Source: Branchiostoma floridae (Eukaryota > Chordata > Leptocardii > Amphioxiformes > Branchiostomatidae). Taken from it: a stretch of DNA of 64,000 nt. Position 1 is the first letter of the stretch. Each line of letters opens with the position of its first letter. Below the pieces are notes generated by a model. That model did not search any database, was not told the DNA's origin, and saw nothing but the letters and a program-made list of their open reading frames with translations. A program made the position numbers and the translations under genes. Location: contig NC_049982.1 in the NCBI RefSeq assembly GCF_000003815.2, forward strand, positions 33,075,746-33,139,745, read 5' to 3'. Shown here piece by piece: positions 19,810-50,400 of the stretch.

Positions 19810-21376
19810 GGGACCGTACGATATTTATCGGGGGGGGAGGGCTGGTGCATTGGAAGTCGGATCAAAAAATTTTTTGATGGCCCTCCCCCCCATCTCAAAA
19901 AAATCTAACGTGACCCTCCCCCTCCACCTCAAAAAAATCAACATGGCCCTCCCCCCCGACAGGCATAATCAAACGGGTAGAAAAACAACCGATAAAATAA
20001 TCTTAATATAGTTAGACGTCAGGGCACAAGGGCGCCAGTGTTCTCGCCAGGATTTTTTCACAGCGTCGGGGCAGGGGTCCGGGGGCATGCTCCCCCGGGA
20101 AAATTTGGATTTTCAAACCCTTTAAAACAGAATTTCCTCCAATTTGAGAGGAAAATTATGCCCTTGAGATTGGATGCCGGTTGCCTTTTTTACTCCCGTT
20201 TTTCAGTAATCGACGTCCGCCCTCCCCCAAAAATATGTTATAACTATAAGCTCGGGGAATCAACAGTTCGTGATCTGGCCCGGGTATTATGTGTCCAGTC
20301 ATGTCTATATGAAAATTTTGGGTTTTTGATGCTTCCAAACAGGGATCTAGCCAGTGAGTTCGTCAGCCCATGGAAAAATTTTTTTCCGACATTGAATAAA
20401 GAATGCCTACCTCGTGCGATCGATGTTGCGCCCTCCCGCATCAAATGCTAGTAGTTTTTCCAGAGGATAAAATAACGGCGCCATCACACCTTGTGTTTTT
20501 TTTTCTATTTTGCCCGATGATTTTACTAGAATTTATCATTTATCGAATCGGTCGGGTTTTACAAGGCCGCGCCGTCATTTTCCACGAGCGTGCGTTTGTT
20601 TCGTGCGACCTCAGGTTACCCCGTTTTCGGCGTGAAATCTTTGGCTCACCGCTGGATTTCTTTTTACATAGAGACCAAGAACGTTAAACATTATACGAAG
20701 GACGGTGATCTGCTGCGTCTTTGGCAGTGATCAGTGCCGGTGTAGCCTTGAAGGAGTAGCCAGAAAAGACGTCCTAACGTGCTGGGCGCTGCGATCGACA
20801 GTCCGTCTGGGGAGGGGGGCGTGCCGCGCCATGTGCCACAGACGACAATGCCAGTGCACAGCCGACTTGATCGACGCTTAAAAACAATATTGCGGCCCCT
20901 TTTCTGCCGCAAATTTTGTCCTTTTGAAACAAAAGAAATGTTGTAAATAAAAAATAAAGTGTAAAGTTTTGGATTCTTCACATATTTACCGCGCACCGCT
21001 TTTGTAACTTAAATATTTGGGGAAACTCAGCCGAGTGCGTCTTTCCAGAAAAAAATAAGTCCGGAGACGGAATGACGTATGCCTGGCGGGAACGCTGGTC
21101 CAGGGCAGCGCCACTTTGGGGGACCTAGGGGGGCGAAGCCCCCCGGAAGCTCTTGCATTTTAGGCTATTCAGAAGGCTTATTTTATCAGTTTTAGGGCCA
21201 TGTCAAGATATTAAAACAACAAATAGTATAAACAATTCTTTCAAAAAAATTAACATGGCCCTCCCCCTATCTCAAAAAAAATTAACATGGCCCTCCCCCC
21301 AGCTCAAAAAAAATTAACATGGCCCTCCCCCCCTAACGCACCAGCCCTCCCCCCCTGAAAAATATCGTACAGTCCC
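19810..21376. mobile_element. PIF/Harbinger-type element, 1.57 kb, non-autonomous
   Basis: Left end GGGACCGTACGATATTTATC and right end AAATATCGTACAGTCCC are inverted. TAA flanks both sides (19,807-19,809 and 21,377-21,379), matching the TWA duplication of PIF/Harbinger. Subterminal 'catggccctcccccc' repeats lie at both ends. No transposase frame is visible. A second element is nested inside. Confidence 0.75.
20035..21098. mobile_element. hAT-like element nested in the Harbinger-type element
   Basis: Ends CCAGTGTTCTCGCCAGG and CCTGGCGGGAACGCTGG are inverted repeats. Target duplication is not exact. The ends resemble the CCAGCGTT.../AACGCTGG ends of the family at 9.4 kb. The interior shows no long frame. 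Confidence 0.55.
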
Positions 21377-25497: not shown

Positions 25498-28400
25498 ATG
25501 GCCAGTCTGATGACATCACCTAGTACCAAGGAGGGGACCTTCCTGTACCACAGCCGGCTGGGCAGCTCCCTGCTGTACCAGCTGTCAGCTCGGGAGAGAG
25601 AGCTGGATCTGGTGCTGTTGGACCACTGTTATGCCAAACCGTGGAGTCAGCATCCCGATGCCAGCCATGCACGCCCCGCCCGAACCCTGTTTGTGCCAAA
25701 GAATATCCGACACCAGCAGAACGACCCAATCAATACGTAAATCAATCATTTTTCCATGTTCTTATTTTTACACATTATAGTAGAAGCCAGTTAATTGCAC
25801 AATAGATTAATGCACACTTCTGTTAACTGCACACAATCCCCAAATTCCAAACCGGTGCGGTCCAGCTGGATAACTTCGCATAATTGCACAAGCCGGATAA
25901 TTGCACCAAATTCACTGGCAAATAGGCTGTGCAATAAGCGGCTTCTACTGTATATCCTGAAATAGCTGCTATAGACTTACAGGAAAGCTAACAGGAACAT
26001 GCGTTTACAATTAACAATATGGGAATGTTGCAAGCTACAAGAATTTTAGAGAATTAGGAAAATATGCATAAATTTTTTTTCCTTTTATTATTAATCTTTG
26101 TAAATTCATATATGTCATATATGAATACAGTGTCATGAAGTAAAAAAAAAAGGAAACAATTTTATGTGATTTCAAAAGAATGCGTTATATAAGTTTTCAA
26201 CTAGTATCTACTGAGTGTCAGATTGTCTACCATGTTAAGTTGACCCTCTTTTCCTCTTATTTTTCCCCACAGAAAAGCAGAGATTCCTGTAGATGTGGTG
26301 GGAGCGCCCAAGCCCGTGGCTGTCCCGTACGACGGCGTGAAGGCACGGTCTGTGATGAATGAGTGCGAGCGTCACGTGAACTTTGCGAGAACAGACTCGG
26401 TGGAACCACCAAATGATGACGACTGGGAGGAGAGACTGACCAGGTACAAATGTGTCCCTTGTCTGTACTTCCTTATACTGTAAATGCAGAAACTTTCGCG
26501 GTGGATTAATGTTCGCGGTTTTCGTGGTGGCCGCTTCACCGCAAACTTAAAACCATCGCGAAAATTTTTCCATGACAGTAAGAGAAATTAAAACCAACGC
26601 GAAAAGTCCCTTTTCCTGCTACCGCGAAATTAAATCCCCGCGAACTTAAATACATTTACAGTAGTTAAGTTAAGTTTTGTGATAACTATTCTTATTGTAT
26701 TGATCAACATACCTATTTGCACTAAAGATGGCCGAATTTGCACCACTTTTCCTCTTGAGTTCTCTGAGCCCCAAAATTGAAACATCTCACTGTCCAGAAT
26801 CAAACTTCCAGTTTGGGATTAATGAGAAAAAAAAAAATTGCTTCCAGCTCGGCAATCATCTGACCCCAGGCTGACCTTGTGACTTTTTGTCCTCCTGATG
26901 ACCCAAATGGGGTATTTACGACCCAGTGTAATTTAGTGGTATTAATGGCAAGCCTTGTTAATTAGCAGGAGCCAAAAATGGTAAGCTGCATTCCACACCC
27001 TATAAGGATAATGAGCTCGTTGAAAGGTTATTACAATTTGCCAGTCGACTGAGTTCCCAAGCCACATGCCAGGCCTTCCAATGATAAGTTCCATAAAAAC
27101 TGGGATCATTTCATGAAATTTTCCATCACCAGAAAAAGCCAGGCATGTGTCCTAGCCTTGACAGGACTTGTAGTAGTTGTACATCCTTTTATTTACATGT
27201 CGTATGAATAGCAAGGACCATCTTTGTGATTTTGTGGAGGAAATTGATGAGACTTCAGCAGAAGGAAGAATGTGATGAGCTGGGCATGATCAGATTAAAC
27301 ATTAATTACAGTAAATAATAACCTAAGTAACCCCATGGTGACCCCTACTTGGGACTGTACCCAGGTTGTTGTTACCATCCTGACATTTTGGTTGAAAAGA
27401 AGTTTTTAAGATTGAAATACAGGATTATTAAGATTGAAATACAGGGTTATTACTTTCATAAAACATGGTTTCAGTGTATTTTGACATGCTTTCCTATGTC
27501 CAGCCCTAACTACGTAATGTTCTCTCTGTGATGTTTCCCTTGTTGAATTGAAGTAACCAAATGACTTGAATTATTAAACCTATATAGTAAAAGGGGAAAA
27601 AACAACAATTGACTGCATCAAACTACACAATAAAAGTAGTGTCTGTATCAGAAAAATGCAGAAAGAACAGAGATAAAATTATAGAAGCTATGGTTGGTCT
27701 CGGTGTTTGAGCTGCAAAAAAAAAGCGTCTGGGTAGTAGGAGGAAAGCTTTCCAAATGCTTGAGAAATTGAAAATTAAGTTTTTACGAACATCTTGTTTT
27801 TGTTGTTTTGTTTTTAGAACTGGCTGGACTCCAGCCCAGAACAAACTGTTCAACAAAGTGCTGAAGGCTCTACAGGCAGACAGACTGGCCAGGCTCACAT
27901 ATGAAGGGGTAAGACACTGGCAGTAGTACTGGAATCACACCTACATCTTACAGAAGGCTCAAAACATTGTACACCCAAAATTGGAGCTGTGCGCTTTAAT
28001 CTTACATATTTGTGTGGGAATAGGCGTAGGAAAAAATGTTGTGTTTTCTTACTTGCACTAGAATACAGAATACTCTTGACATTTAAGTGTCAGAAAAGTT
28101 CATAGAATCTTTGATGCATTATTTGTTTCAACTCTACAGAGGCAGTAAGATTTATAATAAGGCTTTGCTGACATTAATGTATGTTGTGACATGTTTTCTG
28201 TGCATATGAATGCTTAGGTGAGGTGTAGTAGTGAACCTATTCTCAATAATGAATCTCAGGCCACATTTTAGAATGAATGTCATTCATTCAAAGCATAAAA
28301 GTAGTCCATGTGATATTGTAACCAATGTCTGCCATTGTTTTCCATTGTAATGTGTGTAGGCTGTTAACGAGCCTGTGATGAGGAGGATCCATGTGGACAA

Positions 28401-31400
28401 GTGTGCCAGAAGGGTGCGGCAGGCACTGGGCAGTGTGTCATGGGTCAGTCCACCAATCCTCATACTCCTACAACTAGTAATAAACTTTTCCATCCAACGC
28501 ACACAAAAATATTTTTGCATCCAAACTGAAGAGGTACCACTGACAGTTCAGTAAACTGCCGTTTTCATGCGTTATGAATGTAAAGTGTGAAGTGAAAGTA
28601 AATACATGTACCTGGGAAATTTCTCTAGCTCTTCTGAACAAGCACAATCGGTGGACCACGGCTTAACGTCCAATTCTTGCGTTCAGTCCAGTATTTTTGT
28701 TATTTGTACAGTTAGAAGTATAAGGCTGAGTCCCTTTCCCCTGCAGGACCCCAAGTTGACCCAGTGGCTGCACCAGACCCTGGTGGACAGTCTGAGCAGG
28801 CCGTTACTAGCAGCATACCTGGACGTCCTGCAAACCCTCAAGTCGAAGGTTGGTGAAACGTGCCTGTTTCATGTGTGTGAATACTCATGATAACAACATT
28901 ACATTGTTGTGGACAGTTGTGTAGTCAAGATAATTTTGTGGTTACCCCTTTCATCATCATCATACCCCTTTGGAATAAGTGTTTCCCGTTTACCGTAGAA
29001 AAATCTCCCAACCCTAGCCTTTTTTGGGTGGGCAGTAGAGTCGTACAATTTCTAATTAGAATTTTTATTCAGCCTGTTTCCTATTGAAGTAAAAACCGCT
29101 TGTCCTATCTAATGAAGGATAAACATGTCCACGGGTTTGCAGCCATTATGTACAAAATTAAAATTTGACATTGAAAAAAATCTATAAGAAAAAAATAATC
29201 TCTACCTTCTGACCCTATTATATTTTCAGGAAACACGAAATTTTTTTCCGTAGGCCTTATCATGTTCCATGTGCTCACATGTGTAAAATAAGTGGAATCA
29301 TATAAATCCTTTCAGTTAACTTAGATGTCTGTATGATGAATAATTTCAAGAAACATAAGTCTGTATAAGACATGTCCAGTGTCTCACCCTGCTGTTTGCC
29401 CCTGTAGGTTCCAGGCTTGGTAGATAAGATGTCCAGTGTCTCACCCTGCTGTTTGCCCCTGTAGGTTCCAGGCTTGGTAGATAAGATGTCCAGTGTCTCA
29501 CCCTGCTGTTTGCTCCTGTAGGTTCCAGGCTTGGGTGATAAGATGTCCAGTGTCTCACCCTGCTGTTTGCTGCTGTAGGTTCCAGGCTTGGTAGATAAGA
29601 TGTCCAGTGTCTCACCCTGCTGTTTGCTCCTGTAGGTTCCAGGCTTGGTAGATAAGATGTCCAGTGTCTCACCCTGCTGTTTGCTCCTGTAGGTTCCAGG
29701 CTTGGGTGATAAGATGTCCAGTGTCTCACCCTGCTGTTTGCTGCTGTAGGTTCCAGGCTTGGTAGATAAGATGTCCAGTGTCTCACCCTGCTGTTTGCTC
29801 CTGTAGGTTCCAGGCTTGGGTGATAAGATGTCCAGTGTCTCACCCTGCTGTTTGCTCCTGTAGGTTCCAGGCTTGGTAGATAAGATGTCCAGTGTCTCAC
29901 CCTGCTGTTTGCTCCTGTAGGTTCCAGGCTTGGTAGACAAGATGATCAGTTTGTCTACCTCACAAGGAGCGACAAGCGCCGAGGCTCTGAGCCTCCTACT
30001 GAAGCGTCCCTGGGACCCTGCCGTCAGCGTCTTTACCACCCACAAACCGGTATGCAGCTTGTATGGCGAGACAACCACAAGCTCCGCCCATGTAAGGAGG
30101 TGAACATGGCCGACCTTGCTTATCTGAAAGTGGCTCTACATGCAAATTGTTGAATGAAATGAATTGTGACCTTAGTACAATTTTCATGTGATGGAGGGCC
30201 GTAGTTTTCAGATAAGCAAGGTTGGGCTGTATGGTGAAGGTGTAGAAATCAGAGAAAGATGTCTTTGAAATTTTGTTACCTGTACTGTATGGACTGAAAA
30301 CTTTTGATGTAGTAAATCATGAATGTAAACTATATACTAGTATAAGGAATGTTTGAATTCTACCAGGTGGTTGCGAGCATACTTCAGTTGTTCTACAGTT
30401 AGGCTATGTTGATTTGATTATATGGTAACATCCTCTGGGAACCCCAAAACTGATGTGAGCATGCTAATAAAAAAACGTTGCATTCCTTATGTTATGAAAT
30501 CTAATTGGTCAGAAAGGTTGAACAAATGTCTGAGCACACAGTGTTTTATATTATACCAAACAATAGGTCCTTCATTTTTGTTCTTTCACATTTCCTATCT
30601 TGACCATGGAATTGACATGGGTATGACATCAGTATACATTATTCTAGCAATGCATGTATCTGCTCATTTTGCAGCTCCTTTTTGCAATTTACTATATGGT
30701 TGAAAACTTTTTTTGGAAATGACCAAAAATTGATGCAGGCGTGGATGTCATTAATGTGGCCTTTCTTGTGGAAAATGAGAAGAAATGTGTAATCCTACAT
30801 AAATGTCCCAAGAGTGAAATCTTGTCATGTTGAAACTCTCACAGCGGAAGTTGCCGGGGTCGCCCATCTTGCTGATCGCGCCCTGCGGCCCCACCCACCC
30901 GTCGGTGCACCACTCCCGCCGCATGCGCCTGTGGAACAACCACCTGTCCAACCTGGGCAAGGTCATCCCCGTAACCATGCACACGGTCAACGGGGGGTCA
31001 GGGGTCACCGTGTCCCAGCTGCTGGAACACATGGTCAGTGCTGTCAAGAACAAAGTGGGAGAGGTGAGCGGTCAACTCTACACATTTTTTTTCAACCTTT
31101 GACCTGAGCCGGTTTTCAAGGGTTCAAGGTTTGGAGCAGGCTAAGACGTCTACCATTACGTTATTTACAATATTACAAACATTTGCTATTCCATAATCGT
31201 ATTCCCTTAGTCAGTCCATAGTTACTCGTTTGTGTTTCGTAACATGTTCTTCAAAGTTACTCCTGAGTTTGCCTCTCGTACCTTTGGTCTTAAACTGTTC
31301 CATCGCACTGCACCTGAGTAGGGTATTGATCTTGTAAACACTTCCCTACGAACCATTGGTACATACAACAAGTTTGACTCGCTTTGTCATGTTGTTCTAG

Positions 31401-34400
31401 CTGCCCTGTCAAGGGCACATAAGTTCAAGTCTAGGTAACAGGTACAATTTACCTGTTACCAAAGACTGTGCCTGTAGTTACAACTACAATCTATACTTAG
31501 GTTCTTAGCTATATGGACACAGTTAAGTGTTGTGTGTCTGCTAAACGGGCACATACATTTGTATGTCAATACTCTAAGTTGCTATTTTACTGTCCCTTTT
31601 TTGTATGGAGGGATAGATATGTTTTGCAATGAGGTATTAATGTATTTTGCATGGAGGTATAAATGTATTGGTCTACATGTATAGAAATTTTAATCAATGA
31701 CTGAAAATCTTTATTTAGTGTGCTATGTTCTGTGAGCCAAGAAATTTGATTGGTGTGACAGTCATGGATCAATAATTGTTTTCCCTCAGCTCCGAGGCCA
31801 TTTCCCAAACAGACCCATTGTGCTGATTGGATGGTCAGTGGGCGGTCTCATCGCTCTTCATGTAAGTACAAAAACCATATTTTGCAGGGTTCTAGTTAGC
31901 TTATGTATTTGTATTTGTGACTACCAAGCTTATTTGAGGATCATGTTTGCTAGTGTTTACTTGTGTAATACTGTCAAGTCAAATGTGAAAAATGTTGATA
32001 TGACCCTCCAACTTGACAAAATATTCTTCTTATTACTTGTGGATAAGTACGAAATAACTCCCCCATGGATACTCTCAGAATGCAAAATTTTACCTTGCAT
32101 TTTCACAGTCTCCTCACTGTGAAAGGGCCAAGACTTCCATTCTACCCCATCCCCCTACTTGATTCCTTCTCTACCTCACTATTTACCAGTATGCTATTTA
32201 CCATCTGAACCAAGTAGCACAAGCTGTGTTGTTGGTTTGTCTTACCTCTGTGTTGTTGTTCACTATTTGTACCTGCAGGCTGCTGTGTCCGAGTCCGTAA
32301 ATGCAGTCGTGTGTCTGGGGTTTCCCTTTGTTGGAATGGAAGGAGGGCGTGGGGTGAGTGTCTCATTTCCTCGGTTATTGGGTGGGCTGACTACTCTCTC
32401 TTGGCAGCCAGGGGCTGAATTAAAAGGAGCTTACAATAGGCAGGGCTGAATCGCAAGGGTCTGGAGCAAACTGCCATTAAATTACTCAAGCGAATGATGA
32501 ATCCGGATCACCCCCTACATGATCACCCCCTACATGATATAGTCTCTCCGGTCAGGGCAGGGGTCACTGGGAGGTCACTGCAGTTCAGGTAGCATCTCTG
32601 TTCACAACTCCTTCCTACACTATATAACAAATCATTGACTGATGCTCAAGTGTTTTTTTGTCTATGTACTATGTACTTTTGTCTATGTCTACTATGTACT
32701 TTTGTCTATGTCTAGTTATCGTATAAGATCAACAGTATTCAGAGGTACTACTGCTAAGGGGTAACTCTGCAATGTTGATGTAGTGATTAAAGATTGATTG
32801 AAAGGTTGTGTTCAGGACATAGACGACCCTCTCCTGGAGCTGAAGACACCAGCCCTGTTTGTGGTTGGTCAGGACTCGCCCATCTGTTCGGTGGACGACA
32901 TGGAGGATTTCCGGGAGAAGATCAAGGCGGATAATCAGCTGGTGGTGGTGGGCGGGGCCGACGAGATGTTACGCCTTACCCGCGGGAAGAAGAAACAAGA
33001 GGGTGTGACCCAGACTATGGTGGACAGGTGTATACAGGTGACAATGATTGACAGCTTTCTGATGGAATGCAGATTTTTGGGGTCTATACTTAAACAAACA
33101 ACGTGCTATCCCCATTATCAATGTCAGGGCTCGAAATACCACCTGCATATGCAGGTTAGTGCAGGTAAAATTGGAGCTGTGCAGGTATTTCTGATATCTA
33201 CCTGCACCTAACCTGCACTGGGCCATGTACTGGGTTATATACATTAATGTCCTATGATGTAGGTGTATGTGGATTGTTATTAGCTGCATTGACTGTTACC
33301 ACCTAATAGGTATAAAAAAAAAATAGCAATAGTTCCTCAACAATTTAGTATGATCCATACTTTCTGAAGTCAGAGTGGTGCATGTAAAATTTGTCTGGTG
33401 CAGGTTATTTTCAATGTTACCGGCACCAGTGCAGGTATGCAGAAAAAAGTATTTCGAGTCCTGAATGTGAATAGCAATCTCCATAAACGTCAGCCAAATA
33501 GTTAGAATTTATCCAGTTGAGAATGTTTTTGTTTTCTAGTATATGTGCAAGATAGAGTGTCCATCGTAACACATTGCTTATTATGTGTGACTCCTTCTGT
33601 AACCACAATGAGTGAGTTGTTCCATCTCTGCCCCAGGATGAGATCAGTGAGTACCTGGGGGGTATCCTGTCTGCCCAGGTCAGCTCCGGCACCCTCACCC
33701 CACACTCGGACCCCCCTGCCGACACGGAGGGGGAAGTGCAGAAGAAACAGAGGCGGCGCAAGGTCCAGCGCGACCTGAGTACAGAGCTGGGCACCACATC
33801 CTCCCCTGTAGCCAAGCAGAGACCTCAGACACCTAGTAACAGTAGTGAGGTGAGTACAGAGCTGGGCACCACATCCTCCCCTGTAGCCAAGCAGAGACCT
33901 CAGACACCTAGTAACAGTAGTGAGGTGAGTACAGAGCTGGGCACCACATCCTCCCCTGTAGCCAAGCAGAGACCTCAGACACCTAGTAACAGTAGTGAGG
34001 TGAGTACAGAGCTGGGCACCACATCCTCCCCTGTAGCCAAGCAGAGACCTCAGACACCTAGTAACAGTAGTGAGGTGAGTACAGAGCTGGGCACCACATC
34101 CTCCCCTGTAGCCAAGCAGAGACCTCAGACACCAATGCCAACCACACTTGAAGTGAGGATGACTGCTTTACCATGTACTTTTGTACATTGTCCTTTTCCA
34201 GGGCGTGGCATCCCTTCCCAGCACCCCTGGCACCCCCGGGTCCAAGGGTGAGAAGCCCTCCCCACAGAAAGTGTCGACGGGAACATCCACTACCATCAGT
34301 GGCTCCCTGTATGCAGCACAGTATGCAGCTTTCCTTAAACAACAGGCCAACAAAGCATCACTCACCACGCAGAAGGCACCAGGTTGGTCCTGCCTTGTAC

Positions 34401-37400
34401 CTTGTTCAAACAGAGCTGTAGAAATGGTATTACATTGTGCTCACCTCTAGGATTGTGTATTTTTCTACATTGTTTAGGAAGAGTCAGGAAAATTTCGTAC
34501 TCGTAGCTTTTAAGGCTTAGCAGCATCACTCTTCCAGTCAGCATTGTCTGTGTGAAAATTCTTGAATTAATGTCTTACTGTCTTACTCTGCAAGACAGTG
34601 GTCCACTTTGCTACAAGGGAACACTGTATTTGGTCGATCTGGTCCAATACAGTACTGGCACGGTAAAATCCGATTTTAAACAATGCTAAATGCCAAATTT
34701 ACCCTGATTTCTGTCTTGTCAAGTTTGAATGTCCACTGTAAATTTACATGGTAAAAGAGGACCAGTGGTGTCCTATGGACATGGTTGAAACATTTACTGT
34801 AATTCACTTTGTCTTCTCGGTACCAAACTTTCACGATCTGAGAAAATTTAACTTGTTCTCGGAACTAAATGTTCACTGTTGCGGCAAGTGCACATAAAAA
34901 AAGTCTGTGAATTATTTCTTATCAGTAATGATAAATTCACGTTACAGTCATCACCGTGAAAACCGTGAACATAACAGTACATTGAAAAACAGGAATTACA
35001 GTATGTAGTACAGTAGCAATTACTTTGGAAAGTGTACAATATTTGCAGTGTCATGCATTCGTGGCGGAGTGGCACCTCTGTCCTGGGATGGAAATGAACT
35101 TTTGGATATTTCTCCCCATCTGTTTATTAGGGCATGAAAAGGCTTTTATAATATCAAAATGAGGGATTTAACAGCAACGATAATAACACAGGCTTTAAAA
35201 TTCCAATTGAATTGAATTGTGCCTTTTCCTTACTTCCTTACCAATTTCCAAGGCTAAGGATAACTAGTAAGTGGTAAAAAGGGTACTGATCCATTCTATA
35301 ACATGATTGTTGGCAGACATATCTGTAGAAGAGTTATGTATGTCAGCTCTATCAGTTTATGAAGTTTTGGTGCCAATCTGTTTCCTTATAAGTCAGAAAC
35401 TTGAAAGGATTGGTCTCTTAAAAAGTATGTTGTTCTTGGCAGTCGGTCCTACTGCTTGCTGATTGGTCCTCTGGACAGGTCTCTGGAGTGCCAAAGGTCA
35501 CAGAGAGTTCATGACCAGACAATTGCCCCCACCCTTCCTGATACAAACATGTTCTGTAAACAATCTTCTTTATGGGCATTCCAGGCTATATATCCTACCA
35601 GCTTCCCAGATTGTATCTTTGGTATCAGGTTTTATTGACAACATCTGAATCCACAACTGCTGCTAAATTCAGACCAATCCAATCCTGAGTTGACCCCTGG
35701 AAACCCCACTTCTAAGACTGTTTACTGTATGGATACAAGTCTTGCAGTTAGTTTGAAGTAACACAATAAGATGTGGGAGCAAGGATGAACATGGATGTCC
35801 AGGCAGCTAAGATCATGAGAACTTCATTTTGAGAAGTGTAGTGCAGAAGAAAAGTGAGTTCAAAGAAAAGAAGTTTGTATCAGACCTGAGTCAGCTTACA
35901 AATGTGCCCTATGTTAGTACGTAGCAGAGATTCTCATAGATATTTTACCATGATCAATATTTCTGGAAGGAGGCCATATATTATTTATCGTTTGAGGACC
36001 AAGTCTTCCAGCCTTGGTCACCTCTGGTATGACCTCACCCCAGCCCTGTAATCTGTAGCACCACTCAGGCCAGTGTGAAAAGCTTGAAGTAAAAGGTCCA
36101 GATACTGTAAATGCAGAAAGCTTTGCGATGGTTTAATGTTTGCAGTTTTTGCAGTGACCACTTCACCATGAACTTAAAACCACCGCGAACACTTCTCCAT
36201 GGCAGTAAGAGACTACAGTACAGTGCATGCTGCTACCTCGAACATGCAACCACCGCAAAAAGTCCTTTTTCCGGAACCGAAAAATTAAATCCCCACGAAA
36301 TTAAATGCATTTACAGTACTGCAGATGTCTGGGACCATGGAAGAACCCCATGGAGCAGGTCATCCTTGGGGTGGTGTTTTCCCCTCCTGTCTAGATGTAC
36401 TGTTGGAACTGATAAGGGACTGGTCGATATTTAGCGGGGGGGGAGGGCCGGTCGTCAGAGGGTCGGGTCAAAATTTTTTTCCTAGGCCCTCCCCCCCGGT
36501 CAAATTTTTTTTCCTAGGCCCTCCCCCCAAGTCAAAATATTTTTCCTAGGCCCTCCCCCCTCCTATCAAATTTGAAAAATATTCAAGACGCAATTAAATC
36601 ACCGCGCTCCCGCTTGGAAATATCCTTTACGCCATACTGATGATACTGGTTTTCCGTTTTTAGGCGAAGCAGATCTCTTACCCCTAGCAAAAAAGGGAAA
36701 TTGAATGGCTCGGAGCCCATAAATATATTCTTTATGGAGGTTACTTTATTCTTTTGATATTCATAAATGATGCCACTGACTCTACGTACCCACTGAACAA
36801 CACCGCAAAAGTATTTTGTACCTGGATTTCTAGTAGATTTGCGCCGCTTCGCGGCGCGCGCCCCGCCCCTTTACTAAAACGCATTGCAAGCTCGTGGGGT
36901 CTGGAGCAGCTTGTCGGAGACTATTTTCAATGTACATACCTTTGGGACTTGATGGTTCTGTGGTGGTAATAACTGACTGTGACTCGGGGGGAAATGCCAA
37001 CAAAAACGTCAGAACGATGCGACTAACCAAAACTGTAGTGGGGAGGGGGGCGCCGAAGCGTACTGAGGACGATTTTCCCACGGCGAGCCGGGGTCGACCG
37101 GTCGCCTTCAGTCTCTACCTCTCCCGGCGGGCGTTAGAACGCAGACTTCTACTCGGGAGATCTTTTAAAAATGCCACGCTTTTTGTATATCCATTTTGTC
37201 GGTCAAAAATGACGGAATGGGCCTGCACATAGAAGGAATATTGCGATGATTTGAAAAAAAATATTTACGTTTTGCCCGCACGATGTTGCAGCAACATGTT
37301 ATCTTTATGTCTGTATTGTGTCACTATTATTGATGAAGGCGCGTAAGAAAAGTTCTAAATCAAAAGGCCATTTGTACTGGTGTTCTAGGTGTACTGGCAC

Positions 37401-40400
37401 ATGAACAAGCATGACAAAGGATTATGATACTATTTATTCGGTAACATTCACTTTTATTCACGATTCTAATTTGCAATGCCTGCAAACTCCGATCGGAATC
37501 ACCCGGATCCTGTACGATTTAAAAAGCATTTTGACTGGAATTTATGTATTTTTTGACACGTTAGTTCAGATTCTTTTCTCAGTAGCTGTGTCTGTATCAC
37601 AGGCCTCGTGAACTGTCAAGCTTCCGATTTTCATAGTTTTAAAACTATCGACAAAGGAATCGTTTAAGGATGTTTTCCTCCTGGTGCAAACTGTAAACAC
37701 ACGTCACACACCACTCGTCTCCGGTGTGACAAATGCACTGCCGCCTCTTGCGCCATTTTTCTTGGATTTGAGAGGCTCGAGCCGTCCTCCGCGGCTCCGA
37801 CATCATTTCCTCGCGATCTTTGCCAGCCCTGACTCCACCGCTGCCCCTTCTCCCTGTTCCTCAACACTTGTAGTAGAAGCAATAGTTTCCGCGTCGTCCA
37901 CTTCTTCTTGACAAGTCGACGCCTTGGCGAGATACTTGTGTATGTTGTCCAGTGCCAAACATTGCAGTTTCCCGGGTTATTCCCATAGTTTCGCGCCTTT
38001 TTGGCGCCGCTGTGGGCTGTGATTGGTCGCAAGTTAATTCGATTTACGCATAAAGTGGTACGCCCTGTCCAATCGGTACATCTGAAGACTGCAGCCAAGG
38101 CTGTTGCCATGGTAACGACACGTACAACATGGGAATCGGCTTGCACACGTCTTGTACTGCGTGCGGTTGATAATTATGATAGTTCCCAAGCCGAGCACTC
38201 GCTGCTAGCTGTACAGGTTATAACAAGGACGTTGTGTAAGATTTTATAATATAGTAGTGGGGAAAGAGATGTCCTGTCTGCAAAATTTCAGGTTGCGCAG
38301 TGGGTTTAAAATCACGTTGCGCCAAGCAAAATATTCCAAGCCCTCACGATGTGCCAAGCCCTGTGACAGTCGTCTTTTTTTCCTTCTAAGCAAATTGAAC
38401 ATTGTCGACAAAGATTTTGATCTCCAAACACACCTATTTGCTGACGATGTACAGCGAGAGAAAGCGAACATGAAACGAGGAAAGCCGAATTCACAAGTCT
38501 CACCGGCCGTTTCACAGACGGCACTTTGTCACAGGTCATCTTCCAGAGCGGAGCGTTCCAAATTATGAAAGAAAATAGAAAATACGCATTTTCACGTAAT
38601 TTTTTTGCGGTAAAATATGAGGAAAAATACCGACACGTGTTGGTGCGCAGATGTTGACTAGACATGCAAGTACGCTAAATTTTGTCACCGTGACTGAATG
38701 GTAGCATTGCAAACCGGAAGCAACGTTACATTTTACGTCGCATTTTGATAACTTTATCGGCTTCATGCCTTTGCCGCGCCAGCTTCATAAGAAAGGAAAA
38801 CAAATTTGACTGATATTTTCTCCGCCCACCTCTATTAATACAAGCGTTAAAACGGAAAATGAACACTGTAACATCAATATTTTCACAACGTTGTAGCGGT
38901 GTTAAACAGAGATAGAGTCAAAGGCGCGGCAGTGAAATATTACTGAGCGAATTTTCAGCATGTGGAGCGGGGAGCCACCGGCCTTTTTTTTTACCATGCC
39001 GAGCGCCGAACTCGGGCGCGAGGCGTCTCAAGCTTGTGGAGACCCGGGGAAATTTTGAAATCTTGACCCTCTGAAACGCCAATTTCCGGCATTTTGAGGG
39101 ACAAATTATGCTGGTAGTCCGATCAAAAATTTTTCCTAGGCCCTCCCCCCAGCTCAAAATTTTTTTCCTAGGCCCTCCCCCCGGCTCAAATATTTTTTCC
39201 TAGGCCCTCCCCCCTCTGACGACCGGCCCTCCCCCCCCGCTAAATATCGACCAGTCCCTAAGGGCAGGGCTAGGGAGGACCACACCGTTTTATGGGCCAT
39301 CTGGGGAGGCCTACTCCAGCAGTTCATACAGAGGTCACGGGTGGCAGGGTAGTTCATAGCCACTTTCTATAATCTGTACCTTTTCCTGGTATACAACTGA
39401 CAACAAGCGTAAGCTCTTCAAAACAAGTCAGCTGATTAAGGTAATGACATTGGGAGAATGTCTGCCTGGCTGTGTGAGTGAGTGAAATGGGTCCAAAGAA
39501 CACCATGCTGACTTGATTAAGTGGCCAGATTTGCTGGCTGTGAGGTACACATTCGTCTTTCCCAGTGTGTTTACATCCCATGGTCTGTGCTGGCTGGGCC
39601 AGGATGCCCTGGCTACCACCCCAGGAAATTGATGTTGTGCCAACATGGAACATTACAGCATGTCATGTACCACATTAATCAGGGCTGGGATGCCATGCCT
39701 TCACACTACCACTGGTTTTAGGTTACTATTTAGAGGAAGCTGGCAATCAAGTGAAGGGTTATCAACAGTGATACCATGCATGCACCCAGTCCCAGTTTGA
39801 CATGTTGGTATTAGATTGACCCAGACCTGACAGTTTACCCCTTGGCTCACATATCTTGCTCAGTGAGGAGTAGATTAGGGTCCAGGCATGAAATAGTTAT
39901 CAGCAATGTGGTCTGACTTGATCCAAGGACCCAACAACTTGAACAAGGCCAGAATTCTTTTTTACTGTGCCGAGTTTTATAGATTTTGGAGCAGCCACCA
40001 AAACAGCAAGGCAATTTTGTAGATCAGCATCTGTCTTTATAATTGCTGTAATCTGTGGCTATTCTCACTGAAAAACTGAAAATCCCTATTTTGCACATTT
40101 CAGTGAAGCCTGGTATCCAAACCCCAGCCCGATCTCAAGTATCTATCGTGCCACGCGAAAGATATTTGAGGTTGGGGTATGGTATCCAGGCTTCACTGAA
40201 ATGTGCAAAATAGGGATTTTCAGTTGAAAAATAATACAGCTCTAATTGCTTTAGAAAGCCAAAAATGATTGGCTTTGTATTGCAGACAGGTAACAATTAT
40301 GTTACCTTTGACTTCAAGTGACTTTATTCAGATCCACTTTTAGCTATTACCAATAATATTTCTCACAACTAAACAGGACACTTTACTCTTTTTTCTTCAA

Positions 40401-43400: not shown

Positions 43401-44104
43401 GAGTCAACAGAGCACCCCCCAGGCTGCCGGCACCCTACGCCAGAGCCCCAAATCAGCCTTTGTGGCCATGCAGCAGCGAGCAGGCATGGATGTGGACGTC
43501 AGCGACCCCACCAAAATCGAGGTGATTCAGAAGCTCCAGTTCCACGACTTCCCCCTGACCACCGGCAGCCTGACCTCCGCAACAAGCTCCGTCACACAGG
43601 CCAAGATTCTGAAGAGTCTGGACCTGGGAAAGCTGCCTATTCTGTCCGAATTCACCAAATCGTCTGAGAANNNNNNNNNNNNNNNNNNNNNNNNNNNNNN
43701 NNNNNNNNNNNNNNNNNNNNNNNNNNNNNNNNNNNNNNNNNNNNNNNNNNNNNNNNNNNNNNNNNNNNNNAGCAACGTACTCTCTTGGTCGGCTTGGGGC
43801 AGTGTCGTCGACGTCGTATAGTCAAGAGGCGGCGGTGCAGGGTTCGGACAGACCTCATCCCAGCGTGGCAGACTCCGCTGCCGAGTGCGATATTGCAGAC
43901 ACTGCCCGCAGCATCGCCCTGGGTAGGATCCCTACAGTGGACCCCTCTGATGGTCAGCAGCCCTGCCCTTCCCCTGTAGCTACAGCAGCACCAGACAGCA
44001 GCAGTCTATCCACTCACATGTACACCATGGACACGGCAGGAACAGGTATGGTACAGGGCAACGGCAGAGGACGCAGGGGGAAAAATGGCAAAAGCTTTCA
44101 ATAG
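25498..44104 (+). CDS. KANSL3: KAT8 regulatory NSL complex subunit 3 (KANSL3)
   Basis: Exons: 25498-25736, 26273-26443, 27818-27908, 28360-28443, 28747-28848, 29921-30049, 30845-31063, 31790-31861, 32279-32353, 32816-33037, 33637-34074 (or another donor copy), 34202 to about 34385, 42557-43670, gap, then 43772-44104. Every junction up to the gap is GT-AG and in phase. The protein follows vertebrate KANSL3 closely: [18 protein letters not shown] near the start, [10 protein letters not shown], then an alpha/beta-hydrolase fold with nucleophile elbow GWSVGG in exon 8, and exon 10 with [17 protein letters not shown] and [12 protein letters not shown]. The C-terminal half is Ser/Thr/Gln-rich and disordered. 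KANSL3 is a scaffold of the nuclear NSL complex with the acetyltransferase KAT8/MOF, which acetylates histone H4. The last exon is broken by 100 N; the flanking frames differ, so the gap length is nominal. Confidence 0.93.
26476..26663. mobile_element. MITE, TACTGTAAATGCAGAAA family (copy 1)
   Basis: TACTGTAAATGCAGAAACTTTCGCGG at the left faces TACATTTACAGTA at the right, with runs of 'ccgcgaa' and 'ttcgcgg' inside. It lies in KANSL3 intron 2. Confidence 0.7.
29371..29920 (+). repeat. 57-bp minisatellite carrying ten copies of a 3' splice acceptor
   Basis: The unit begins GTTCCAGGCTTGGTAGATAA, and GTTCCAGGC starts recur every 57 bp at 29408, 29465, 29522, 29579, 29636, 29693, 29750, 29807, 29864 and 29921, the last being exon 6 of KANSL3. 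Each unit ends with a polypyrimidine tract and TGTAG, the acceptor of that exon. A partial unit precedes the first. In the sense frame each unit is 19 codons ending in TAG, so an upstream acceptor would run into a stop. The antisense frame is open for 267 codons purely as a by-product. Confidence 0.9.
32561..32587 (+). promoter_or_regulatory. Three nuclear-receptor half-sites (DR5 plus DR4)
   Basis: GGGTCA, five bases, AGGTCA, four bases, AGTTCA, all on the plus strand inside a KANSL3 intron. The sequence just upstream belongs to a repeat found at 2.9 kb, so the sites may have come with a mobile sequence. Confidence 0.35.
33125..33463. mobile_element. MITE, CAGGGCTCGAAAT family (copy 3)
   Basis: Starts CAGGGCTCGAAATACC and ends GTATTTCGAGTCCTG, with an exact 5-bp duplication AATGT at 33,120-33,124 and 33,464-33,468. 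It lies in the KANSL3 intron before exon 11. Confidence 0.85.
33778..34152 (+). repeat. 75-bp coding minisatellite carrying copies of a 5' splice donor
   Basis: The unit AGTACAGAGCTGGGCACCAC... recurs exactly every 75 bp, at 33778, 33853, 33928, 34003 and 34078. It encodes a 25-residue repeat ([18 protein letters not shown] then SNSSEVS). The junction AGTGAG|GTGAGT, a strong donor, ends each of the first four copies (after 33849, 33924, 33999 and 34074). The fifth copy diverges after 'cagacacc' and ends with a weaker donor GAA|GTGAGG at 34,152. All are in phase 0 with the next exon at 34,202. Confidence 0.9.
36103..36318. mobile_element. MITE, TACTGTAAATGCAGAAA family (copy 2)
   Basis: Left end TACTGTAAATGCAGAAAGC, right end GCATTTACAGTA. 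The interior keeps 'ttaaaaccaccgcgaa' and 'ccatggcagtaagag' as in copy 1. Confidence 0.7.
36416..39258. mobile_element. PIF/Harbinger-type element, 2.84 kb
   Basis: Ends GGGACTGGTCGATATTTAGC and GCTAAATATCGACCAGTCCC are perfect inverted repeats, flanked by TAA at 36,413-36,415 and 39,259-39,261. Both ends carry subterminal 'cctaggccctcccccc' repeats, and a C-rich stretch with TCTGACGACCGGCCC follows. The interior has a minus-strand frame at 37,664-38,146 with no recognised transposase motif, so the element is probably non-autonomous or decayed. Confidence 0.85.
40076..40223. repeat. 148-bp foldback element
   Basis: CTGAAAATCCCTATTTTGCA and the following bases through 'cctggtatcc' reappear inverted at the right, ending GGGATTTTCAG, giving arms of about 50 bp around a 45-base loop. 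The inner AGCCTGGTATCC matches the element at 4.0 kb. Confidence 0.85.
42135..42354. mobile_element. MITE, TACTGTAAATGCAGAAA family (copy 3, inverted)
   Basis: Right end TTTCTGCATTTACAGTA is the inverted terminus of copies 1 and 2. The left end is diverged. The interior has 'gcggtggttttaagtttgc'. Confidence 0.65.
43671..43770. other. Assembly gap (100 N) in the last KANSL3 exon region
   Basis: Exactly 100 N, a nominal gap size. The open frame before it and the one after it are not in register, so either the real gap is of another length or it hides an intron. Confidence 0.95.
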
Positions 44105-45284: not shown

Positions 45285-45384
45285 NNNNNNNNNNNNNNNN
45301 NNNNNNNNNNNNNNNNNNNNNNNNNNNNNNNNNNNNNNNNNNNNNNNNNNNNNNNNNNNNNNNNNNNNNNNNNNNNNNNNNNNN
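45285..45384. other. Assembly gap (100 N)
   Basis: Exactly 100 N between KANSL3 and CYP26. Confidence 0.95.
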
Positions 45385-46249: not shown

Positions 46250-46349
46250 NNNNNNNNNNNNNNNNNNNNNNNNNNNNNNNNNNNNNNNNNNNNNNNNNNN
46301 NNNNNNNNNNNNNNNNNNNNNNNNNNNNNNNNNNNNNNNNNNNNNNNNN
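46250..46349. other. Assembly gap (100 N) at the edge of a palindrome
   Basis: Exactly 100 N, directly adjoining the inverted repeat that starts at 46,350. Confidence 0.95.
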
Positions 46350-47415: not shown

Positions 47416-50400
47416 TTAGACAATGTTGGACAAGTCCGGTCCAACCACCGTCACAGTGTCCGGGGAGTTTTGCTCGCTGGTCGGATACAAGTTCCCGTTT
47501 TTGTCCAAGGTCAAACAGGGGTCACTTCTCGTGACCAGGTCGGTGTTCATCAACGGAGCATGCGCGGGAGCAGCAAGTCCGTCTGCATCCTCACGTTTGA
47601 CGGTGACGTCATCCAAAGAGACAAGGTTTACCGGAAGTCCATTGGCGGGATGAAGAACAGGGACTGATTTCATCTCTGGCACCTTGCCGTCCGCCAGCTC
47701 CCAGCGGCAGCTTCTCACCAGCTCCACGCACAGCAACTTCAGCTGCAGCTTGGCGAACTCCTTCCCGGCACAAGCGCGAGGTCCGGCACCGAAGGGTAAG
47801 AAGTCGTACCTGATGGCCGTGCTGTCGGCAGCCGCCCACCTGTCCGGGTCGAACTGCTGCGGCGACGAGAAGAGCTGTGACGCGCTGTGCGTGTCTCTGA
47901 TGCTGTACATGACGGCCCAACCTTCCGGAACCTGGAAGCCCTGTGTACGACAGATGAATCGGACATGAGCCATGACTCAAACACTTGTATTCAAACTGGT
48001 GTTCAAACCTACTCTCCAAGCAGAGGTTAGGCTCCGGCTGTTTTTAACGTTTTTTGGTCGTTTCTATCTAGTTCAAAACCTAGTTTTTGCAAGGTACAAT
48101 ACAAAATAGAAAGCCCTATAAAAACGACTAAAAAACAGCCGTCTAACCNNNNNNNNNNNNNNNNNNNNNNNNNNNNNNNNNNNNNNNNNNNNNNNNNNNN
48201 NNNNNNNNNNNNNNNNNNNNNNNNNNNNNNNNNNNNNNNNNNNNNNNNCTTGGAGAGTAGTTCAAGACAGCAATTGTTACTGTTCCTTTTATTGGGTTTA
48301 ACTCCGACCTCCGGACAAATAAATTTCCGACCTTCTCACAAGCCCTCGTTCAGACCGTGGCTGAGTTGTGAGAAAAGCCGTATTTGGTTGGGGTTTGTCG
48401 ACAAGGTTGGCTATTAGTCTTCAAATGTACTGGTAACCTGCGCAGCGGTATTTGTTGAAACATCAGGTAACCAGTCTGGTGGTATAAATGATTGTGAAAT
48501 ATTTTGATCTAAACATACCCGAAGAAATCCACCAGTGCAATATATCGACGAGCGCCATCTATCGACGTAGACGCAGGACGCAGCTGAACCTAGCTGACCA
48601 ATTACATTGCTCGCTACTCATTTCTAACAATGTCAACTTTGGTCTGGACTCTGGATAAAGTCGGGAGGCCATGACTGACCTATGTGTGACCTACAGTGTA
48701 TAAGCCTGGTCAAGCACATCGAACTCGAAACATGATGATTTCGATAATTATTAGTGCATGTAAGTAACATGCGGCGTCGCCAGGCCTTTTCTATCAGCCT
48801 TGCTAGTCGGTGTTCTCTGTTGAAATGTTTAATAGTCGTCTCCGGCTGACTTGGCAGAAATCATACCCAAACAAGTCTTTAGCACCCCGCATGTAACAAA
48901 AGCGATTGCCTGTTTAGCTTCTTCAAGCCACATCACATGTAGATGCTTTCCCAACGTTACCCCAAACTTCACTTGCGGGAAGCCAGACTTCTCAAGAGAA
49001 ATTCATTATGGGAAGTCATGGCGCTATGATCGAATATGCCATGAATGTTTTTTTGTTTTTTGTTTTTTGTATTAGGTCTACGATTCGAAGCCTCAAAAGT
49101 TATCACATACAAAAATACAATAGCATTGACTGTCAATGGGTATGCTAGATGCAAAACTTCAGAATTGTTCTCATTTACTACATGTATGTCCGAAACGTTT
49201 AGATCGAACCTTTTCTACAGGTAATTTGCTTTATTTGTAGACTTACGCCAATCGCGAATGTCTTGAGAGCCTTCCTGAAGCCTCCCCCTATAGGTGGACT
49301 GATCCTGAGCACCTCCTTGACGACCTGCCCCACGTACGTCAGCCTGCCGACCTGCTCCAGACTCAGAGGCTGGTCCGGCTGCAGCAGCCCGTGCTTCTCC
49401 AGGTCCTCCTGCACCTTCTGAACCACCTGTGGCTGCAGCGCCAGGTGCATGATGAGGGAGGTGGCGGCGCTGGACGTGGTCTCGTGCCCGGCAAACAGCA
49501 GCTCCACGGCCGTGTCCAGCAGCTGCTGTTGGTCCACAGCCTTCCCTTCCTCCTTCGCGCTGCTGATGATGAAGGACAGCACGTCATCCGGGACCTCTCC
49601 GCTCCAGATCTGCGCATGCTTCTCGTGGATGTGACGTTTCAGCCATTCGTCGATTTCCTGGCGACACTGCAGAGCCTAGAGGAGATGAGGTACGAGACAT
49701 GAGCTTAGATACAGTTGTGGTTATGAAAAAGAACTGCTAGGGGGGCTCGAGATGTAACCCCTTCTTTTTGTCTACCTATAAAGAGTGCGTTAGTCCTCTA
49801 TTCTGTACAATGAGAACAGTCATTCACAACTTCGTTACCGAAAAGTTAACTTCTTCCTCATATAAAATCACCAAGGGCAACTAGCAGTCGCCTAAATTGA
49901 AAATTGTGTTGTTAACTACAATAGAAGAAATGAACGGTATAAACCGCTACAGTTCTAGTGTCTTCTAGAGAAATCTACAAGGATACCCAAAATCGAATGA
50001 GAATGAACTCACTTTTCTGAGTGCGCTTCCTGGCACGTTCAATGGTAAGGAGAAGATGTTCTTCACAGCGGTCCTGAAAAGTGACCCAACTCTCCTGGCC
50101 TCTTCCTCATCTTGATGGAATCCGACCAGAACAGCTATGGCGAGTCGGAACATCATCTCTCGAGCGGCGGGGTAGACTGCCAGCGGCTGGGGCCCCCTGC
50201 ACCAGCCCCGCAAGGTGTCCGCGATCATGGCCTGCATGCTGTCCGTGTAGATCTCCAGTGCATCATGGCGGAAGGCACGCATGACGATCTTCTTCCTCTG
50301 CCTGTGGAGTGGCCCGCTGCCGCACATGGCCAGGTTCTCCGTCCCCAGCACCATGCGGAAGTTGTCCGGCCACATGGTGCCCACGATGTCGTTCTCTCCG

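Follow-up and report, generated by a model that had tools for sequence, protein, structure and literature searches.

The lancelet gene KANSL3 raises the question of which acceptor the spliceosome takes when ten near-equal ones stand in series: the nearest across the intron, or the nearest across the exon. Because its authentic end is known and its flanking introns are long, this array provides a clean natural test of spliceosome choice. In this work, we analyzed a 64-kb stretch of DNA that contains the gene (the window; C4:33,075,746-33,139,745). An initial annotation of the window had the anatomy of the acceptor array right, and it made no connection to the known class of lancelet boundary minisatellites termed mirages or to a second array, which multiplies donors in exon 11.

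A 57-bp minisatellite at the start of exon 6

TRF called an array at 29,372-29,944 with a period of 57, 10.1 copies, 96% matches, and a score of 1069. For comparison, the best score for any array with a period of at least 20 was 60 in 50 control windows, which were generated from a first-order Markov model with the composition of the window, and such arrays appeared in six of these 50. Alignment of the units (Table 1) moved the bounds from 29371..29930, as first annotated, to a start at 29,372 and an end at 29,941, and confirmed nine full 57-bp periods upstream of the authentic unit (29,372-29,884). The exonic share of the unit, previously given as 30 or so bases, is 21 bp, or 24 if the ATG common to the breakpoint is counted. 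The intronic part consists of CTCAC, a pyrimidine tract, and TGTAG. The A of CTCAC lies 22 nt upstream of the AG in copies 1 and 10, which were inspected, and the other copies are invariant there.

Table 1. Coordinates of the features discussed; slashes in sequence motifs mark splice junctions.
Feature	Position	Strand	Basis	Details
KANSL3 gene model, exon 1 to start of exon 12	25498..34202	+
KANSL3 exons 1-6	25498-25736, 26273-26443, 27818-27908, 28360-28443, 28747-28848, 29921-30049	+	Frame and GT-AG
KANSL3 exons 7-12	30845-31063, 31790-31861, 32279-32353, 32816-33037, 33637-34152, 34202 onward	+	Frame and GT-AG
KANSL3 exon 5	28747..28848	+		Ends ...LKSK, donor AAG/GTTGGT
Acceptor array	29,372-29,941	+	TRF and unit alignment	Ten 57-bp units
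Nine extra units	29372..29884	+		Per unit, last 36 bp of the intron and first 21 bp of the exon
Tenth, authentic unit	29885..29941	+		True acceptor end of intron 5 (AG up to 29920), then the initial 21 bp of exon 6
Example of a truncating read	29408..29464	+		18 residues from acceptor 1, stop at TAG of acceptor 2
KANSL3 exon 6	29921..30049	+		129 nt, phase 0, donor CCG/GTATGC
Array in exon 11	33776..34133	+	TRF and gene model	75 bp (25 codons); a partial fifth copy follows four full, identical ones
Four donors GAG/GTGAGT at unit junctions	33847..34080	+		Last exon bases 33849, 33924, 33999, 34074
Terminal weak donor GAA/GTGAGG and stretch to next acceptor	34150..34201	+		Donor at 34152, 49 nt, acceptor at 34201
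Globin locus L010, array	L010:954-1601 (C18)		TRF	158 bp, 4.2 copies
Kinase locus L065, array	L065:1182-1550 (C19:9,613,497)			Acceptor spacing 147-152 bp

The units are nearly uniform. Each has zero to two mismatches to the consensus over 57 positions, pairwise identity ranges from 54 to 57 of 57 (mean 55.2), and only five columns vary. Copy 1 equals 2; 3 equals 6 and 8; 4 equals 7; 5 equals 9; and the tenth, authentic unit is distinct, with GAC where the others read GAT. The AG is intact in all ten, ending at 29407, 29464, 29521, 29578, 29635, 29692, 29749, 29806, 29863, and 29920, which are the positions first annotated. At the left edge (TAAGAC/ATGTCC) and the right edge, the array is bordered by unique sequence; the tenth unit continues into exon 6 as ATGATCAG, and the other units begin the next unit with ATGTCCAG. 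The breakpoint of the original duplication is likely at the ATG common to both edges. A search of the 513-Mb assembly, which skipped very common words, matched the array at its own position only (one candidate). Block duplication of units was not supported by permutation of the unit variants: adjacent-pair repeats reach the observed value in 4272 of 7560 arrangements, and 8.3% keep every C after B.

The twelve exons of the gene model were placed by eye from the reading frame and GT-AG. With the last acceptor, the frame runs from the ATG at 25,498 to the start of exon 12 without an internal stop. The product of exons 1-10 (468 residues) matches Pfam KANSL3_1st (PF23154; 32.6 bits, cut-off 23) and Abhydrolase_11 (PF20408; 42.5 bits, cut-off 27). 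On this predicted product the gene is KANSL3, with a helical domain and an alpha/beta hydrolase domain that are both above the Pfam cut-offs; a search of PDB chains with the product of the model gave no match. Exon 5 alone matches PF23154 with an E value of 4.9e-05, and the full match spans residues 143-241, extending 12 residues beyond the exon 5/6 joint (residue 229), which supports a joint at 28,848/29,921. The end of exon 5 and the start of exon 6 are both in phase 0. An alternative in-frame joint, with donor GTTG/GTGAAA and an acceptor TTCCAG 7 nt further on, gives a product one residue shorter; it was rejected because its score is 29.1 rather than 32.6 bits and its PF23154 match stops before the joint.

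Acceptor and donor choices in the KANSL3 model

We scored splice sites with a position weight matrix (PWM) of approximate values. On this scale the array acceptors barely differ, at 11.03 (copies 3, 5, 6, 8, 9, and 10), 10.85 (copies 1 and 2), and 9.16 (copies 4 and 7); the initial annotation was right that ten equivalent acceptors stand in a row. For the ten acceptors elsewhere in the KANSL3 model, scores are 0.75-12.84 with the same approximate matrix, and 17 of 3922 AGs on the plus strand of the window reach at least 11.03, six of them in the array. Copies 9 and 10 are identical over 42 nt before the AG and 17 nt after it, so local sequence within this stretch offers nothing to distinguish the last copy. 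Past the junction, the authentic copy first departs from three of the decoys after 13 nt and from the other six after 17 nt, and for short reads over the exon 5 junctions, telling decoys apart requires reads that span the extended exon.

As first annotated, the sense frame of 19 codons ends at the TAG of the next acceptor: all nine upstream acceptors lead to an in-frame stop there, and only the last is productive. The decoy tail has VPGL(V/G) at its start, 11 further residues, and (P/L)L at its end, and any upstream acceptor would yield nearly the same 247-residue truncation. Exon 6 would measure 642 down to 186 nt from acceptors 1-9, and 129 nt with an open frame from the last. Since the truncated form still scores 31.6 bits against PF23154, the profile by itself barely discriminates between the truncated and full forms; the reading frame does. 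A stop more than 50-55 nt before an exon joint is the rule for NMD. At 129-585 nt upstream of the exon 6/7 joint, the decoy stops fall under this rule, and NMD would be expected for the decoy transcripts. Intron 5 is 1072 nt long if it ends at the last acceptor and 559 nt long if it ends at the first; intron 6 measures 795 nt.

Several other readings of the acceptor array were tried and rejected. Open frames on the minus strand run through it (286 aa at 29275-30135 and 199 aa at 29346-29945), and the 286-aa frame has weak Pfam matches (DUF5004, 2.5e-07; DUF3741, 1.2e-06; and two more). None of these matches has a single passing stretch, and we judged them to be repeat artifacts; because a 57-bp unit is 19 codons, any frame that is free of stops in one unit stays open throughout the array. 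Recursive splicing is suggested by TGTAG/GTTCCA, which resembles a zero-length exon, but no donor at that GT scores above -1 and a ratchet is unlikely. RNA folding of the array was not better than that of shuffled sequences (z -0.72; 5 of 20 shuffles equal or better). A hairpin is also predicted at the start of the authentic exon 6 (29930-29957; GGTAGACAAG...TTTGTCTACC) that is missing from the other nine units, with 10 bp and -13.1 kcal/mol, compared with -8.7 or -11.7 for the other copies. It was given no weight, as the plus strand of the window holds 45 stem placements of such quality.

The second array lies in exon 11. Its four GAG/GTGAGT donors score 11.63 and the other donors of the model 1.83-10.61 on the approximate PWM, and from any of the five exon 11 donors the frame continues in phase 0 into exon 12 and stays open. 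The terminal donor scores 7.34 and would leave an intron of 49 nt. This would be very short for a chordate intron, so the donor in use is expected to be one of the four strong sites. In this model KANSL3 shows both outcomes of boundary duplication, since the extra acceptors break the frame and the extra donors keep it. The two fates, nine truncating decoys and four in-frame donors, can therefore be compared in one transcript.

Mirages in lancelet genes

Arrays of boundary minisatellites in lancelet genes were named "mirages" in PMC3087553. Mirage units range from 10-72 bp in Adh3 to 150-160 bp in BflGb6, whose two haplotypes carry 6 and 3 units, and the mirage of BflGb9 is on the donor side (PMC3087553). 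PGBD5 has splice-site repeats of 60 and 108 bp, with 2 versus 7 and 3 versus 6 copies in two assemblies (PMC3902484). Published data on Adh3 and RT-PCR of globin transcripts point to regular splicing (PMC3087553), and TnC is described as a further mirage gene with normal splicing (PMC3902484). Across the Adh3, globin, TnC, and PGBD5 mirages, normal splicing is reported or inferred.

The KANSL3 acceptor array is a large new example of this class rather than a new kind of element. Its unit crosses the intron-exon boundary (36 bp and 21 bp), every copy contains the splice signals, the authentic boundary is at the edge of the array with the coding frame open (from exon 1 into exon 12), and its 57 bp fall inside the published range of 10-160 bp. 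As in the BflGb6 mirage, most copies contain splice signals and the authentic copy is last, whereas BflGb6 has larger units and 6 or 3 duplicates instead of nine (PMC3087553). Adh3 (Canestro et al., 2002, as described in PMC3087553 and PMC3902484) likewise has a boundary minisatellite, with normal mRNA reported; its somatic length instability has been shown, whereas the KANSL3 array is known here from one assembly. PGBD5 resembles KANSL3 in having two arrays within one gene but differs in its imperfect repeats and in the copy number that differs between two assemblies (PMC3902484). Outside lancelets, the human ABCA7 VNTR is also a minisatellite that starts at, and multiplies, an authentic splice site; unlike the KANSL3 acceptor array, it is on the donor side and has a 25-bp unit with 23.7 copies in the reference, and effects on expression and exon 19 skipping have been measured (PMC5954066). 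A search of the open-licence literature for KANSL3 in amphioxus found no relevant paper.

For comparison within the assembly, TRF was run on 64 loci besides the window's own, chosen by protein domains, and splice signals were read in five of the array-bearing loci (L010, L065, L051, L054, and L037). Nine globin loci were inspected as a positive control. Mirages were found in at least two of the 64 loci, a lower bound. The globin locus L010 has acceptors at 1035, 1189, 1347, and 1505 (scores 12.5-12.9) upstream of a globin exon. From its domain, unit length, and layout, rather than from published letters, this array seems to be the published BflGb6 mirage. The array of the kinase locus L065 has acceptors at 1201, 1348, and 1500 (scores 13.1-13.5), the last of which lies exactly where the kinase match begins (kinase exon at L065:1501), and it looks like another mirage. 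Together, KANSL3 and the kinase locus suggest that such arrays are no rarity in this genome. Separately, an 87-bp repeat at L051:3357-3552 has two strong donor-like CAG/GTAGGC sites near a kinase match and is a possible donor-side array.

Selection among the ten acceptors

We consider it probable, with real room for doubt, that in this acceptor-side mirage exon definition favors the last acceptor and some unproductive leakage occurs through the upstream copies. The array probably started with one tandem duplication linking intron 5, 36 bp upstream of its end, to exon 6, 21-24 bp from its start; unequal exchange or slippage would later have expanded it to ten units, each of which, by its motif, carries a whole acceptor. 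With long introns on both sides, exon 6 is probably recognized by exon definition, and the acceptor chosen would then be the one separated from the donor at 30,049 by the shortest exon, namely, the last copy. A minor share of transcripts probably comes from upstream copies, each an expected target of NMD. The array would be mostly tolerated and mildly costly, and not a designed switch.

In support of this explanation, long flanking introns were found to favor sites nearest across the exon and short ones sites nearest across the intron, with the change near 250 nt (PMC9225289). For introns of 1072 and 795 nt, this rule predicts the last copy. Among human alternative acceptors, an overall upstream preference was reported in both groups of 3' splice-site events; among near-equal acceptors with both flanking introns long, it was significantly reduced and not plainly reversed (PMC9225289), so leakage is expected. 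This preference counts against the favored explanation, and two further points do so as well. Reed and Maniatis, as told in PMC9225289, found that the upstream of two competing acceptors was chosen. Furthermore, decoy transcripts removed by NMD would be compatible with normal RT-PCR products in related genes and are not excluded by them.

The last acceptor might instead be used with perfect fidelity, leaving the mirage with zero functional effect. The published RT-PCR statements on lancelet mirages (PMC3087553; PMC3902484) and the fact that the shortest exon comes from the last acceptor fit this idea. We regard it as unlikely, since the other copies have no local sequence difference that would protect them and the surveyed acceptors showed a general upstream advantage (PMC9225289).

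Slightly harder to accept is a copy-number rheostat, in which the upstream acceptors would often be used, their transcripts would be lost to NMD, and the number of units would set the KANSL3 output of an individual. The near-equal scores of nine decoys that all truncate would suit such a device, as would the copy-number differences of the BflGb6 and PGBD5 mirages (PMC3087553; PMC3902484) and the inverse correlation of ABCA7 expression with VNTR length (PMC5954066). However, the mirages of the Adh3, TnC, and globin genes were reported to leave splicing undisturbed (PMC3087553; PMC3902484), and in ABCA7 the retention of one VNTR unit was unchanged with VNTR size, whereas exon 19 skipping changed (PMC5954066).

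An extended version, which we hold to be improbable, makes the acceptor array a length-variable brake, in which each added unit raises the odds of a truncating acceptor, while the donor ladder of exon 11 varies the protein in 25-residue steps with the frame kept. If true, an essential chromatin regulator would be set by a fast-mutating minisatellite.

It is very improbable that the inner units serve as alternative exons, now or in the future, from which a new intron or exon could arise. Ebner and colleagues proposed this model for globin mirages (PMC3087553), and each KANSL3 unit has donor-like GTs (CCT/GTAGGT, 3.84-4.84; TTG/GTAGAT, 2.42; TGG/GTGATA, 3.25) against 1.83-10.61 for the real KANSL3 donors. 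These internal donors are nevertheless weak, and an exon at 29408-29460 would have 53 nt and shift the frame. Least credible of all is an artifact of assembly: an older draft misassembled one published mirage (PMC3087553) and copy numbers differ from draft to draft (PMC3902484), but five columns differ among the KANSL3 units, the array edges are unique sequence, and the same assembly contains the two further boundary arrays of the globin and kinase loci.

Other features were observed in the window around the gene. Four short arrays with a period of 32-33 bp (19877-19957, 21243-21332, 36466-36560, and 39123-39214) have a common CCCTCCCCCCA-like core and perhaps belong to one dispersed minisatellite family. 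Runs of exactly 100 N at 43671-43770, 45285-45384, 46250-46349, and 48149-48248 are possible assembly gaps or withheld sequence, the first of them inside a long open frame downstream of KANSL3. Also downstream, on the opposite (minus) strand, is a cytochrome P450 exon at 47416-47976 (PF00067, 85.3 bits).
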